This document shows positions 26,770 to 31,991 of a DNA stretch of 64,000 nt, in pieces. The stretch is from contig NZ_CP087997.1 of assembly GCF_021044565.1 (NCBI RefSeq), positions 434,001-498,000 of the forward strand, read 5' to 3'. Positions within the stretch are counted from its first letter, which is position 1, and each line of letters opens with the position of its first letter. A model generated the notes under the pieces. It searched no databases. It was not told where the DNA came from and was given only the letters and a program-made list of their open reading frames with translations. The position numbers and the translations under genes were made by a program. The stretch is from Subtercola endophyticus (GTDB lineage: Bacteria; Actinomycetota; Actinomycetes; Actinomycetales; Microbacteriaceae).

Positions 26770-26975
26770 TGCCGATCGAAATCAACCTCGACGTTGAGCT
26801 TGCGAAAAAGAAGATGTCGGTGACTGACCTTGCGGGCGCGATCGGGCTCGCGGTGGCGAACGTGTCGATTCTCAAGAACGGCCGCGCGAAGGCGATCAGG
26901 TTCTCAACGCTCGACGCCATCTGCGAGGCGCTCGGCTGTCAGCCGGGCGACATTCTGCGGTACGTGCCCGACTGA
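26769..26975 (+). CDS. Small XRE/Cro-CI-type HTH regulator (YozG-like)
   Basis: 68 residues, made up almost only of an HTH: MSVTDLAGAIGLAVANVSILK followed by NGRAKAIRFSTLDAICEALG and the typical ending CQPGDILRYVPD. The start overlaps the DUF2975 stop (TGATG). It is the partner of the membrane protein and the likely ligand of the TATCGAATAACG sites at 26233-26270. A GC-rich tandem array begins right after its stop. Confidence 0.9.
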   Translation: MPIEINLDVELAKKKMSVTDLAGAIGLAVANVSILKNGRAKAIRFSTLDAICEALGCQPGDILRYVPD

Positions 26976-26976
26976 C

Positions 26977-27099
26977 GCGGCCGCGGCGCGAACACTGCAC
27001 GCGCGCCGCGGCGCGAATACTGCACGCGCGCCGCGAGTATTGCGCGCGCGCCGCGGCGCGAGTATTGCGCGCGCGCCGCGGCGCGAGTACTGCGCGCGA
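26977..27099. repeat. GC-rich tandem array D1
   Basis: Five imperfect units of about 25 bp (one 20 bp) based on GCGCCGCGGCGCGAATACTG, with variable AATACTGCACGC or AGTATTGCGCGC ends. It fills the gap between two convergent genes. The unit shares AATACTGCGC with the arrays at 29838 and 62933. No open frame is supported here. Confidence 0.85.
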
Positions 27100-27119
27100 G
27101 CGGGGCCCGCGCGAACGAC

Positions 27120-27416
27120 TCAGATCTCGTCGTGCAGTTCGGTGCGCGTCAGCGTCGGCATCGACGCCACGATGGCACCGAGGTCTGATGCGCCCTCGGG
27201 AGTCGCGCGCCAGGCGCGGTAGGCGTTGTCGGCTTCGATCGACGCCCATTTCTCCACCAAGACGAAATGCGTGGGGTCGTCGACGTCGACGGTCACGTCG
27301 ACCCCGAGGTTTCCTTCGCGGGCGCGAGTCGCCTCGAGGGTCTGGTGAATGTTGGCGGCAGCGGCCTCGAGTGCGTCGGCTTTGACGTGCAGGTCGAGAA
27401 AAGAGAGAACAGTCAT
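27120..27416 (-). CDS. Antibiotic biosynthesis monooxygenase (ABM)-like protein
   Basis: 98 residues, the normal single-domain ABM length. It shows the dimeric alpha-beta barrel pattern: TVLSFLDLHVKADALEAA at the start, a helix with HQTLEATRAREGNLG, and FVLVEKWASIEADNAYRAW, which contains the conserved V-x-x-W (VEKW) motif. Family members act on quinones or small polyketides without cofactors. No neighbour points to a substrate; it precedes the rhodopsin gene's stop by 66 bp on the same strand. Confidence 0.85.
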   Translation of the reverse strand: MTVLSFLDLHVKADALEAAAANIHQTLEATRAREGNLGVDVTVDVDDPTHFVLVEKWASIEADNAYRAWRATPEGASDLGAIVASMPTLTRTELHDEI

Positions 27417-27482
27417 AAGTTCACACTATTCCTGTCGAAAGGGCACTGCGTGCCGAAATGCCGCAACGCCACGCAAATCGCG

Positions 27483-28466
27483 TCAGTAGCCGCCGTCGAG
27501 AGGAGTGCTGTCGGGCGGCAGCGGCGCCTCGGGCGAGGCGACGGCGGCGCTGGTCGGCGGCTTCGTACGCCGGTCATGAACGGCCGCGCCCTCGGCGAGA
27601 TACACCTCACGCGGCAGTCCGGCGTCGGACTGCTTCACCGATGAGATCCAGATGGACTCCGGATGCACGTCATCACCGGCGCGCACGTCTTCCGCCGTGC
27701 GCAGCTTCGCCACGCGGTGCGTCTGGGTCGAGAACCCGAGCTTCACGATGACGTCAGCCACCGTGAGGGTGATCAGAATCGTCGTCGTCAGGCCACCGCT
27801 GGCCCCGAACAGCGGCAAGAAGTACACGATCGGGTAGACCACCCAGCCGGCCAAGAGAACGATCGCGGCGCTCTTCAACATGGTGTGCGACTCGGGCGTC
27901 AGCGTGGGCAACGATTGTCTGACCGCCCGGATGAGCACGACATTCGCGATCACCCAGAATACGCAGCTGATGACGGCCCAGAGAATGAACGCACCCGTGT
28001 TCGTTCCGTTGTCGATCACGATGGCGCCGAGAAAACCGCAGAAGATCATGGCTCCCGTCGCGGTGACCGCGATGGCGGTGTTTCGGCGGGCCTGCACTCC
28101 GAGTGTGGCGCAGACAGCGAGCAACTCGATGGTCAGCAGCGGAACGCTGACCGTCCACTCGATGTACCTCGTCGAGAAGATGTTGATAGCGCCGTCGTTC
28201 GGCACCCAACCGCCGGCGGTGCTGTCGTACCCGAGCAGGAAGGCCACGATGATGAGAATGTACGCCAGCAGGGCGACTCCGAGCATCCCGAGCCGGGCGG
28301 AGACGGCCGTACGGTAGCGCGAGCCGACCTCGTTGCGCGTGATGTAGGTGCGGATGAATCCGGCGACGAACGCCAGGGCGGCGACGACGAGAAAGTAGAA
28401 GATGAGCTGGTGTTCGGCGTTGCTGAGAGTCGCGCCCCACGGAACGCTGACGTTAGTGAGCCGCAA
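27483..28466 (-). CDS. Microbial rhodopsin, cryorhodopsin-like
   Basis: 327 residues from a TTG at 28466, chosen because AAGGA lies 5 nt upstream; a GTG at 28511 is possible. Seven membrane helices are visible. Helix G holds the retinal Lys242 with Asp238 (TVADVIVKLGFS). Helix C reads RYIEWTVSVPLLTIE: the counterion position is Glu103, the BR T89 position is Ser107 and the D96 position is Glu114 (motif E-S-E). Helix B carries Arg58 at the place of BR Thr46 by my alignment, a buried arginine as described for cryorhodopsins of cold-adapted actinobacteria. The ~75-residue C-terminal tail is polar. The gene overlaps the DUF7882 gene by 14 nt, so the two are translated together. A photosensor role is inference. 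Confidence 0.92.
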   Translation of the reverse strand: MRLTNVSVPWGATLSNAEHQLIFYFLVVAALAFVAGFIRTYITRNEVGSRYRTAVSARLGMLGVALLAYILIIVAFLLGYDSTAGGWVPNDGAINIFSTRYIEWTVSVPLLTIELLAVCATLGVQARRNTAIAVTATGAMIFCGFLGAIVIDNGTNTGAFILWAVISCVFWVIANVVLIRAVRQSLPTLTPESHTMLKSAAIVLLAGWVVYPIVYFLPLFGASGGLTTTILITLTVADVIVKLGFSTQTHRVAKLRTAEDVRAGDDVHPESIWISSVKQSDAGLPREVYLAEGAAVHDRRTKPPTSAAVASPEAPLPPDSTPLDGGY

Positions 28467-28776
28467 GACGATCCTTCGCTGACGGTTCGGCGGTGAAGAA
28501 GAGGCCTCCACCGCTGTTCGCCGAGTTCATGAGCACGTCGATCCATTCGCGGTTGATCGCCGGAACGCGGCTGCCGTAGAACCGGTAGAAGATCGTGCTC
28601 GACGGGTCGAGCCAGATGGAGCTGCGGCCACTGCCGATATCGGCCGAGTCTGCCCACGAGAAGATGAAACTCTCGCGGCGGCGAAGCTTCGCAGTGATCA
28701 CGATCTGCAAGTGGGTCAGGGCGCGGTCGTCGAAACTGACTTCGATGCTGGGACTGCCGTACATCAACATGCCCAT
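28453..28776 (-). CDS. DUF7882-type small protein paired with the rhodopsin
   Basis: 107 residues. Conserved family blocks are IEVSFDDRALTHLQIVITAK, LRRRESFIFSWAD, IWLDPSSTIFYRFYG and INREWIDVLMNSANSGGGL. No signal peptide or membrane helix; a small cytosolic beta-rich protein is likely. Its stop lies inside the rhodopsin gene's start region, giving tight co-expression. A paralogue with the same blocks lies at 31405. In this copy the acidic loop is ADSADIGSG and the C-terminus is longer and basic (AKDRLAAH). Published cryorhodopsin loci have been reported, as I recall, with a small uncharacterised neighbour, so this could be the rhodopsin's partner. Confidence 0.8.
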   Translation of the reverse strand: MGMLMYGSPSIEVSFDDRALTHLQIVITAKLRRRESFIFSWADSADIGSGRSSIWLDPSSTIFYRFYGSRVPAINREWIDVLMNSANSGGGLFFTAEPSAKDRLAAH

Positions 28777-28823
28777 GGAGGGCCCCCTGCCGTTGCCCTA
28801 ACCCTAGTGGGTACTCTCGGGTG

Positions 28824-29837
28824 ATGGACGTGGAGAGTGTCGCTCGCGAGCTGTACCGGTTGCCGCCGGCGCACTTCACCGCGGCGCGAAATGCGCGGGC
28901 GAAACACGTAGCCGCTGCCGGAGACAGGGAGCTTGCCGACGGAATACGCAAGCTCGCGAAGGCTTCGCCTGCAGCATGGGCCGTGAACCGGGTGCTGGCC
29001 GATGAGCCCGAGTTGAAGGGCGAGGTCGTGCGGCTCGGGGAGACGCTTCGAGAGGCGCAAGAGCATCCTGATCGCCAGACGCTGACGGAACTGAGCGAGA
29101 AGCGCAAAGGCCTCGTGCGGCGGGCGACGAACCTCGCCATCGACGGGGCCGAACGAGACGGCGTCGGGGTGAGCGGCGCTGCGCAAGCCGAGATCGAGCA
29201 GACGCTCTTCGCCGCTGTCGCCGACTCCGGGGCAGCAGCGGCCGTGTTCAGTGGTCGACTCGTCCGAGCGCTGCAGTCGACCGGGTTCGAGCAGGTCGAC
29301 ACCTCGGGTGCGGTGGGCGGCCCGCAGGCGGAACCGATCGTGTTGGCTGCGGGCGGGGCGGCGGATGCCCGGGGCGGGCGCATCGGGCCGAGGTCTGCCG
29401 AATCGGCGAGGGGTGTGGGTGCGCGGTCGGCCGGTGCCGGTGCTGGTGCCGGTGGTGGTGCTGCGGCGGAGGCGGAGGAGGAGGAGGCAGCGGCGGAGGC
29501 GGCGGCTGCGGAAGCGGAGGCCGCACGTAAGCGCGCGCACGAGGAGGCCGTTCGAGTAGCCGAAGCAGCCCGACAGACCGCTCGCGACGCCGCGCGGAAG
29601 GCAGACGACCTGGCCGGCACGCTGAGCGGGTACGACCGTGAGGCGCGCGAGGTAGCGGCCGAGATCGACGATCTGGAGTCACAGCTCGAGGCGCGCCACG
29701 ACCGGCAGCGTGAGCTCGGCGCGCAGCAGCGAAAGGCCGAACGCGAACACCGCGACGCCGTCACGACGGCCGGGCGAGCGGCCCGCGACGCCGATGCTGC
29801 GGCGGCACGCGCCGTTGATCTGTCGTCCGCGCGGTAG
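28824..29837 (+). CDS. Coiled-coil protein of unknown function
   Basis: 337 residues from the ATG at 28824 (an in-frame GTG precedes it). The N-terminal ~150 residues are helical with the pattern REL-YRLPPAHFTAARNARAK, LAKASPAAWAVNRVL and ETLREAQEHPD, which looks like a conserved actinobacterial domain but not one I can name. The middle (~160-235) is Gly/Ala/Glu-rich low complexity (GAGAGAGGGAAAEAEEEE). The C-terminal ~100 residues are a charged coiled coil (DDLESQLEARHDRQRELG). No membrane segment. It is divergent from the DUF7882/rhodopsin pair with only 47 bp between starts, so a shared promoter region is likely. Confidence 0.8.
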   Translation: MDVESVARELYRLPPAHFTAARNARAKHVAAAGDRELADGIRKLAKASPAAWAVNRVLADEPELKGEVVRLGETLREAQEHPDRQTLTELSEKRKGLVRRATNLAIDGAERDGVGVSGAAQAEIEQTLFAAVADSGAAAAVFSGRLVRALQSTGFEQVDTSGAVGGPQAEPIVLAAGGAADARGGRIGPRSAESARGVGARSAGAGAGAGGGAAAEAEEEEAAAEAAAAEAEAARKRAHEEAVRVAEAARQTARDAARKADDLAGTLSGYDREAREVAAEIDDLESQLEARHDRQRELGAQQRKAEREHRDAVTTAGRAARDADAAAARAVDLSSAR

Positions 29838-31298: not shown

Positions 31299-31404
31299 GG
31301 CGCCAGTTTAGGGTGCGCGGCGAGGGCGCGGTTAGACTTGGCGCCGCACGTGCAGCGAGGCGAACGTCAGCGCTCGCGGTGCGACACACGTCGGAGGGAT
31401 GATC

Positions 31405-31734
31405 ATGGGAACGTTCAACTACGACACCGTACTCAAGGTCGACTTCGACGACCGGGTTCTCGCGCACATCCAGATCGTGGTGGGCGCGAAGCTGCGGCGC
31501 GGCGAGTCGTGCTACTTCAGCTGGCGTGATGACGACGGTGTCGGTGATGGGCGCACAACGGTGTGGCTGCACCCGGCGCTTCCGCTGGTGTACAAGTACT
31601 TCGGCAGCAAGATGCCGCGTATCAATCCGGCATGGATCGAGCTTCTGACCGAGTCGGCGAATTCGGCCGGTGGCCTGCAACTGCTGCCGGAGCCCGAGAT
31701 GGCGACCATGTCGGTGGCTGGTGGCGAGCGATGA
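31405..31734 (+). CDS. DUF7882-type small protein (second copy)
   Basis: 109 residues from the ATG at 31405; GGAGGG lies 6 nt upstream, whereas the earlier ATG at 31399 touches it. It shares the blocks VDFDDRVLAHIQIVVGAK, LRRGESCYFSWRDD, VWLHPALPLVYKYFG and INPAWIELLTESANSAGGL with the rhodopsin-linked copy. This one has the more common family sequence (DDGVGDGRTT). Its stop overlaps the next start (ATGA), making a two-gene unit. Probably cytosolic; function unknown. Confidence 0.85.
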   Translation: MGTFNYDTVLKVDFDDRVLAHIQIVVGAKLRRGESCYFSWRDDDGVGDGRTTVWLHPALPLVYKYFGSKMPRINPAWIELLTESANSAGGLQLLPEPEMATMSVAGGER

Positions 31735-31991
31735 AACGCATCAACATCGTCTACGGCGGCCAGCCGTACAGCATCGGCGGCAGAGAGCTCGAAAGCGTGC
31801 TGAGCGAGATCGGTCTCGGTCTGCAGTCGGCAGAACCGCGGTGGCTGACCGTCAACTACGGCGAGGGCGTTCCGCGCACCGCGCATCTCTTGTTGGCCAC
31901 GGGTATCGACATTGCGATCATCCCCGTTCCGGGCGTAGACGAAGACGCCGACCAAGAGTCTGCGGAGCAGCCGCCCCCGCGTGCGCGCTGA
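31731..31991 (+). CDS. Small protein linked to DUF7882
   Basis: 86 residues, overlapping the DUF7882 stop by 4 nt. It begins MKRINIVYGGQPYSIGGREL, continues with EPRWLTVNYGEGVPRTAHLL and IDIAIIPVPG, and ends in an acidic then Pro-rich tail. The first 70 residues look like a compact alternating beta fold. I recall similar small genes after DUF7882 genes in Microbacteriaceae, but can give no function. No partner of this kind accompanies the rhodopsin-linked copy. Confidence 0.8.
   Translation: MKRINIVYGGQPYSIGGRELESVLSEIGLGLQSAEPRWLTVNYGEGVPRTAHLLLATGIDIAIIPVPGVDEDADQESAEQPPPRAR

Follow-up and report, generated by a model that had tools for sequence, protein, structure and literature searches.

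CryoRhodopsin 2 and its overlapping DUF7882 gene in Subtercola endophyticus, a published candidate light-signalling pair, and the wider distribution of the partner family in Microbacteriaceae

The window analysed here, a stretch of 64,000 nucleotides from Subtercola endophyticus (NZ_CP087997.1, positions 434,001 to 498,000), carries a cassette of two overlapping genes that encodes the published CryoRhodopsin 2 (CryoR2) together with its already proposed signalling partner, a small protein of the DUF7882 family. We favour, with moderate confidence, the reading that the cassette combines the CryoR2 photoreceptor with a putative cytoplasmic transducer, in which a light-driven change of the rhodopsin tail would alter or release a ring of DUF7882 subunits. 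The features discussed below have the following positions in the window.

28453..28776, minus strand: DUF7882 (PF25355) gene, first in the cassette, 107 aa, with an ATG start and the stop codon TAA at 28455-28453
27483..28466, minus strand: CryoRhodopsin 2 gene, 327 aa, with TTG at 28466-28464 and TGA at 27485-27483
28453..28466, minus strand: 14-nt overlap of the two genes, with AAGGA at 28476-28472, upstream of the TTG
28293..28295, minus strand: codon of the diagnostic helix-B arginine (R58 in CryoR2, corresponding to R57 in CryoR1)
27588..27608, minus strand: C-terminal strand EVYLAEG (residues 287-293), which includes the published pore plug E287; candidate docking strand
31399..31734, plus strand: second DUF7882 gene, with no adjoining rhodopsin
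31731..31991, plus strand: gene of an 86-aa unnamed protein (MKR, our label), ATGA-coupled to the preceding DUF7882 gene

Both products were assigned to known families, with scores of 124.5 bits against PF25355 for the DUF7882 protein (cut-off 27) and 76.8 bits against PF01036 for the rhodopsin (cut-off 24.6; the frame was scored with a longer GTG start). The TTG start, separated from AAGGA by 5 nt, is supported by the deposited CryoR2 chain, which starts at exactly that residue. The earlier note on this DNA had correctly described this start and its AAGGA inside the end of the DUF7882 gene, as well as the 14-nt overlap, and the retinal lysine that it recognized is present as K242. The overlap is not a chance one, since the arrangement recurs with DUF7882 directly upstream on the same strand at 24 of the 24 named related loci that have upstream DNA, and the chance reading was rejected on this ground. 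These loci come from Subtercola, Cryobacterium, Frigoribacterium, Glaciihabitans, Salinibacterium, Herbiconiux and unplaced Microbacteriaceae and partly overlap the 18 cassettes of the survey described below; a 25th, L167, is cut by a contig end. Within positions 27100-29100 we found no match to a sigma-70-type promoter and two terminator-like sites versus 1.0 in shuffled sequences. Short GC-rich repeats at 26975-27100, with units like gcgcgccgcggcgcgagta, separate an ABM-domain gene from a small gene that we read as helix-turn-helix-like.

The window rhodopsin matches the deposited CryoR2 chain (8r0p_A) over its full length, with 326 identical residues in addition to the start (TTG here, M in the deposit). 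The same chain has been deposited as PDB 8R0P, 8R96, 8R97 and 8R98, and the next match is CryoR1 (8r0k_A, 360 bits). The motif R58, R100, E103, S107, E114, D238 and K242 (RRESEDK) fits the CryoRhodopsin pattern RRXXXDK, with R58 as the helix-B arginine at the position of bacteriorhodopsin T46, and both the conserved elongated C-terminus of CryoRhodopsins and an adjoining small transducer gene are present. The numbering also agrees with residues Y41, R44, R58, R100, E114, W208 and E287 as they appear in the CryoRhodopsin paper (Lamm et al. 2025, PMC12227055), where R58 is given as the helix-B arginine of CryoR2 and Subtercola sp. AK-R2A1-2 as its source. According to the same text, a small gene adjoins or overlaps the CryoR gene in all genomes examined there, and its product, called water-soluble, is predicted by AlphaFold3 to form a pentamer that binds the CryoR C-terminus by sheet augmentation, similar to bacterial PH domains, with ipTM values >0.8 among the eight pairs tried. 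The partner family was deposited in Pfam by these authors as DUF7882 (PF25355). The light-signalling interpretation of the two genes in the earlier note thus coincides with the one that PMC12227055 offers for this very rhodopsin, and the small neighbours of published cryorhodopsins, which that note mentioned as uncharacterised, are DUF7882 proteins, the family having been created for them.

Since the cassette has been published for this very gene, the finding itself was already known; rhodopsin, partner family and adjacent or overlapping gene order are all those of the CryoRhodopsin-transducer pair in PMC12227055, from which the cassette differs in nothing. The physical interaction of CryoR2 with DUF7882 is predicted, from the published AlphaFold3 models. 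A literature search covering few subscription journals found no mention of DUF7882 or PF25355 outside PMC12227055. The survey in that paper covered CryoR genomes (40 sequences). New in relation to it are a control group of rhodopsins lacking the helix-B arginine, the residues and tails typical of rhodopsin-linked DUF7882 proteins and a second cassette in the source genome, as well as an exceptional genus (g77) and MKR as a further protein coupled to DUF7882.

Among 299 genomes of Microbacteriaceae, searched for rhodopsins with E-values up to 1e-10, we identified 101 rhodopsin genes in 82 genomes; since these genomes are related to one another, none of the survey counts is independent. The helix-B arginine is present in 18 of these rhodopsins (including the decayed L102), and the same column in the other 83 is occupied by A (51), S (25) or G (7). 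A DUF7882 gene lies within 300 nt of every one of the 18 Arg rhodopsins, upstream on the same strand in 16 cases and convergent downstream in two, whereas none of the 83 non-Arg rhodopsins has such a neighbour in the flanking DNA examined, which extended to at most 1.5 kb for 30 loci (L011-L040) and about 2.6 kb for 71, with less at contig ends and <40 nt of upstream DNA at the non-Arg loci L020 and L028. The association between the arginine and the DUF7882 neighbour has a Fisher's p of 2.7e-20 with related genomes counted as independent. The neighbourhood survey suggested by the earlier note therefore bears out the pairing for the Arg rhodopsins (18/18) and shows no such neighbour for the other rhodopsins of the family in the DNA examined (0/83), and an association of DUF7882 with rhodopsins in general was rejected on the same flanks.

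The Arg rhodopsins are further distinguished by their C-termini. All of the 18 but one, the decayed L102, showed a tail of the EVYLAEG/RxRPP type, in some cases as a variant (for example EVFIAPA or AVYLATD). This tail is absent from all 16 nearest non-Arg relatives, to which the comparison was limited out of the 83, and 12 of these 16 have an ESIWISS-like stretch after helix G. By their motifs, we read the nearest non-Arg loci as the DSE group, described in PMC12227055 as the nearest relatives of CryoRhodopsins. The loci taken for DSE are related and keep the ESIWISS-like stretch, and they differ in having no helix-B arginine, no EVYLAEG/RxRPP tail and no DUF7882 gene in the flanks examined; the window rhodopsin, with R58, falls outside this group. 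In one of the 16, L100 (G097:C3), the rhodopsin frame departs before the retinal lysine, and a PF15461 gene lies about 1.6 kb away. By coordinates, PF15461 genes also occur at most 3 kb from several non-Arg rhodopsins.

Regarding the source of retinal, no match to the carotene dioxygenase family PF15461 was found in the source genome, which has one RPE65-type oxygenase (C1:606581) and one phytoene-synthase-type gene (C1:3146127). Among the 13 CryoR genomes, six possess PF15461, one (the source genome) RPE65, and six neither.

We further compared 131 distinct DUF7882 sequences, comprising 30 linked to rhodopsins, two convergent and 99 orphan copies; the orphan rows are a chosen sample, consisting of every copy retrieved from the 13 CryoR genomes and the best-scoring family and phylum matches. 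In the resulting tree (98 columns, 131 rows), which left out the truncated L102 protein and three further rows (one with a stop and two fragments), 61 of 128 inner branches have support below 80. The linked label requires 3 changes on this tree versus 27.4 in shuffles, and the linked rows together with L173 and L176 make up one side of a branch with support 67. A single clade of linked rows alone was not rejected (p 0.224; six long rows were left out of the one-clade tests). Copies with no rhodopsin in their 1.5-kb flanks are nested in the linked group, namely L173, L176 and perhaps the L183 pair. On this tree, the linked DUF7882 proteins form nearly one subgroup.

Certain residues are frequent among linked copies and infrequent among orphans, for example A19, T28, D57, S60, T61, Y64, R65, F93 and F94, and the window DUF7882 carries all nine of these. 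Positions 57-65 extend from shortly ahead of a predicted strand (61-67) into it, according to an AlphaFold2 monomer model of low confidence (pLDDT 52.5), and we propose that this linked-type strand may be a specific docking edge. The C-terminal tails also differ between the two sets: 26 of the 30 linked tails have a positive net charge, four are neutral and none is negative, whereas 24 of the 99 orphan tails are positive, 27 neutral and 48 negative (p 2e-10, kinship ignored). Among the CryoR tails beyond RxRPP, 29 of 30 are negative and one has zero charge, and three more intact tails fell outside the pattern.

The rhodopsin and DUF7882 genes appear to be passed on together. With L102 left out, rhodopsin and DUF7882 distances across 30 distinct pairs are correlated with r 0.56, compared with a maximum of 0.36 in 2000 permutations. 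When partners were swapped within each of the seven genomes that have two usable cassettes, the true combination gave the highest correlation among 128, by a narrow margin (the next reaches 0.55). A second cassette is found in the source genome outside the window (G000:C1:516374-517461; loci L002, L010 and L101), with a rhodopsin 56% and a DUF7882 protein 85% identical to those of the window cassette. On the draft contig of L102 (G203:C45:1-5600), the rhodopsin frame is interrupted by a single internal stop and the adjoining DUF7882 is truncated. Translational coupling is common in the cassettes and not obligatory: in 25 of 31 distinct pairs an in-frame candidate start codon overlaps the DUF7882 stop (12) or lies at most 9 nt beyond it (13), and the remaining six have gaps of 55-133 nt, these starts being candidates, with that of CryoR2 the only one proven.

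The genus g77 departs from this pattern. In its two loci, L079 and L090, the only DUF7882 neighbour of the Arg rhodopsin is the convergent downstream gene, and these copies carry the orphan-type residues I60, P61, F64 and K65. Neither S60 nor T61 was found in any of the 11 DUF7882 copies of the two genomes, and the g77 rhodopsins keep the tail strand. A clade uniting the convergent with the linked copies was not rejected (p 0.587). The g77 pairs may represent a natural exception or a partner replacement.

In the mechanism that we favour, coupled translation would lead to CryoR2 and DUF7882 being produced together. The long C-termini of the CryoR2 pentamer would cap its cytoplasmic mouth, and five DUF7882 subunits would assemble into a PH-like ring, each sheet of which would take up one rhodopsin strand; ring and docking are those of the published AlphaFold3 prediction. 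In PMC12227055, the docking strand lies in the CryoR C-terminus, and we infer that it may correspond to EVYLAEG (287-293), with an electrostatic contact possibly added between the acidic tail of the rhodopsin and the basic one of DUF7882. According to that paper, the C-terminus of CryoR2 caps the pore in an acidic-pH structure, with E287 blocking its cytoplasmic end. As EVYLAEG begins with E287, one tail segment would have two possible homes, the pore cap and the DUF7882 edge strand. CryoRhodopsins are described there as having a minutes-long photocycle with a UV-absorbing state, and a flip of R58 is reported for the long-lived state. Light would thus bring CryoR2 into a minutes-long UV-absorbing state with a flipped R58, from which UV would help it recover; the change on its cytoplasmic side would then, as we propose, shift the holding of the tail between pore cap and DUF7882 sheet, and this shift could change or release the ring and so pass on a signal.

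An alternative that we consider unlikely is that DUF7882 serves in assembly or stability, by holding the tails within the CryoR pentamer or aiding its formation, and carries no signal. Coupled translation and strict pairing fit this explanation equally well, and the cassettes offer no further shared gene to receive a signal: among frames of at least 80 aa, the 33 loci compared all share only those of DUF7882 and those covering the rhodopsin. The clusters that rank next, which resemble overlapping frames or close-strain synteny, reach at most 10 of the 33 loci, so a third cassette gene of this size was rejected and no output gene is in sight. Against a purely structural subunit, PMC12227055 describes CryoR1 and CryoR2 as pentameric without the partner, and CryoR1 lacking its tail as still pentameric with a similar photocycle. 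That similarity also counts against a demonstrated coupling of light to the tail.

Even less probable, in our view, is that DUF7882 plugs or opens the central pore of CryoR, so that the cassette would act as a regulated carrier of protons into the cell rather than as a messenger system. The cytoplasmic narrowing of the pore is formed by E287, at the start of EVYLAEG in the same tail, and inward, UV-modulated proton transport is reported for CryoR1 in PMC12227055; however, this transport is called weak and is described without DUF7882, and the available part of the paper gives no sign of conduction through the central pore. The absence of any physical partnership, with the overlap reflecting no more than a compact operon whose two genes serve under shared conditions, would agree with small gene overlaps being common in bacteria, with DUF7882 occurring in more genomes than rhodopsins and with the different arrangement in g77, but it is quite improbable given that the DUF7882 neighbour co-varies with the buried arginine and the C-terminal strand in comparison with the nearest relatives, that the linked subgroup has its own strand and tail, and that both genes have decayed jointly in L102.

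Returning to the photoreceptor-transducer reading, archaeal sensory rhodopsins and Htr likewise have a photoreceptor gene beside a transducer gene, and Htr is a membrane-spanning chemoreceptor. Unlike Htr, the window partner is a 107-aa protein that matches DUF7882 only and is called water-soluble in PMC12227055, so it is not a membrane-spanning transducer of the Htr type. The bacterial PH domains named in that paper (PDB 3DCX) share the five-membered ring with sheet augmentation of the published prediction; unlike this predicted likeness, the DUF7882 sequence has no significant match to solved chains (best E 0.8).

DUF7882 is far from restricted to rhodopsin loci. It was found in 193 of the 299 family genomes, with up to 16 matches per genome, and in five of 396 genomes of a sample across the phylum, all five belonging to Microbacteriaceae; the source genome has eight copies, two of them rhodopsin-linked. 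The description of the small protein as dedicated to the rhodopsin, given in the earlier note, is consequently apt for the linked subgroup only, the family as a whole being commoner than rhodopsins (193 versus 82 genomes). Several DUF7882 proteins are publicly named 'ATP-dependent DNA ligase', a name that looks wrong because the domain table shows DUF7882 only.

At a distance of 2.6 kb from the CryoR cassette, the window contains a DUF7882 gene that overlaps the MKR gene in ATGA. Within the window, least is known about MKR, which matched no family in Pfam. It occurs in at least 42 of 199 family genomes, with up to 27 candidates scored per genome, and in 25 of 30 loci (30 of 60 matches examined) it directly follows a DUF7882 gene, or in 18 of 23 once the seven loci that were seeds of the search alignment are set aside; of the 30, no DUF7882 gene was found directly upstream at L244, L247, L249, L252 and L264. 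The offset of -3 seen in the window recurs in 15 of the 25 paired loci. A structural model of MKR (pLDDT 85.8) has the order strand-strand-helix-strand-strand-strand, which is the order predicted for the first part of DUF7882 in its low-confidence model. A comparison of the MKR and DUF7882 profiles beats 200 of 200 column shuffles, though with a plain HHalign probability of only 19-37%. MKR may be a distant DUF7882 homologue and hetero-partner.

These observations allow a broader and more tentative scenario, to which we give somewhat less than even chances: DUF7882 could be a general docking ring of Microbacteriaceae with interchangeable coupled partners. Its CryoR branch would be marked by the D57, S60, T61, Y64 and R65 strand, the basic tail and the acidic tail of the partner, and its unstudied MKR branch by a distant DUF7882 relative that perhaps joins the ring at the site of the rhodopsin strand, so that light sensing would have been grafted onto an older, light-independent module.

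The published pair is a candidate UV-light sensor with a soluble transducer. The contrasts described here make this sensor testable, as they indicate which DUF7882 and rhodopsin-tail residues would be expected to matter and which genomes are natural exceptions, and the light-independent DUF7882 copies may reveal what the ring does.
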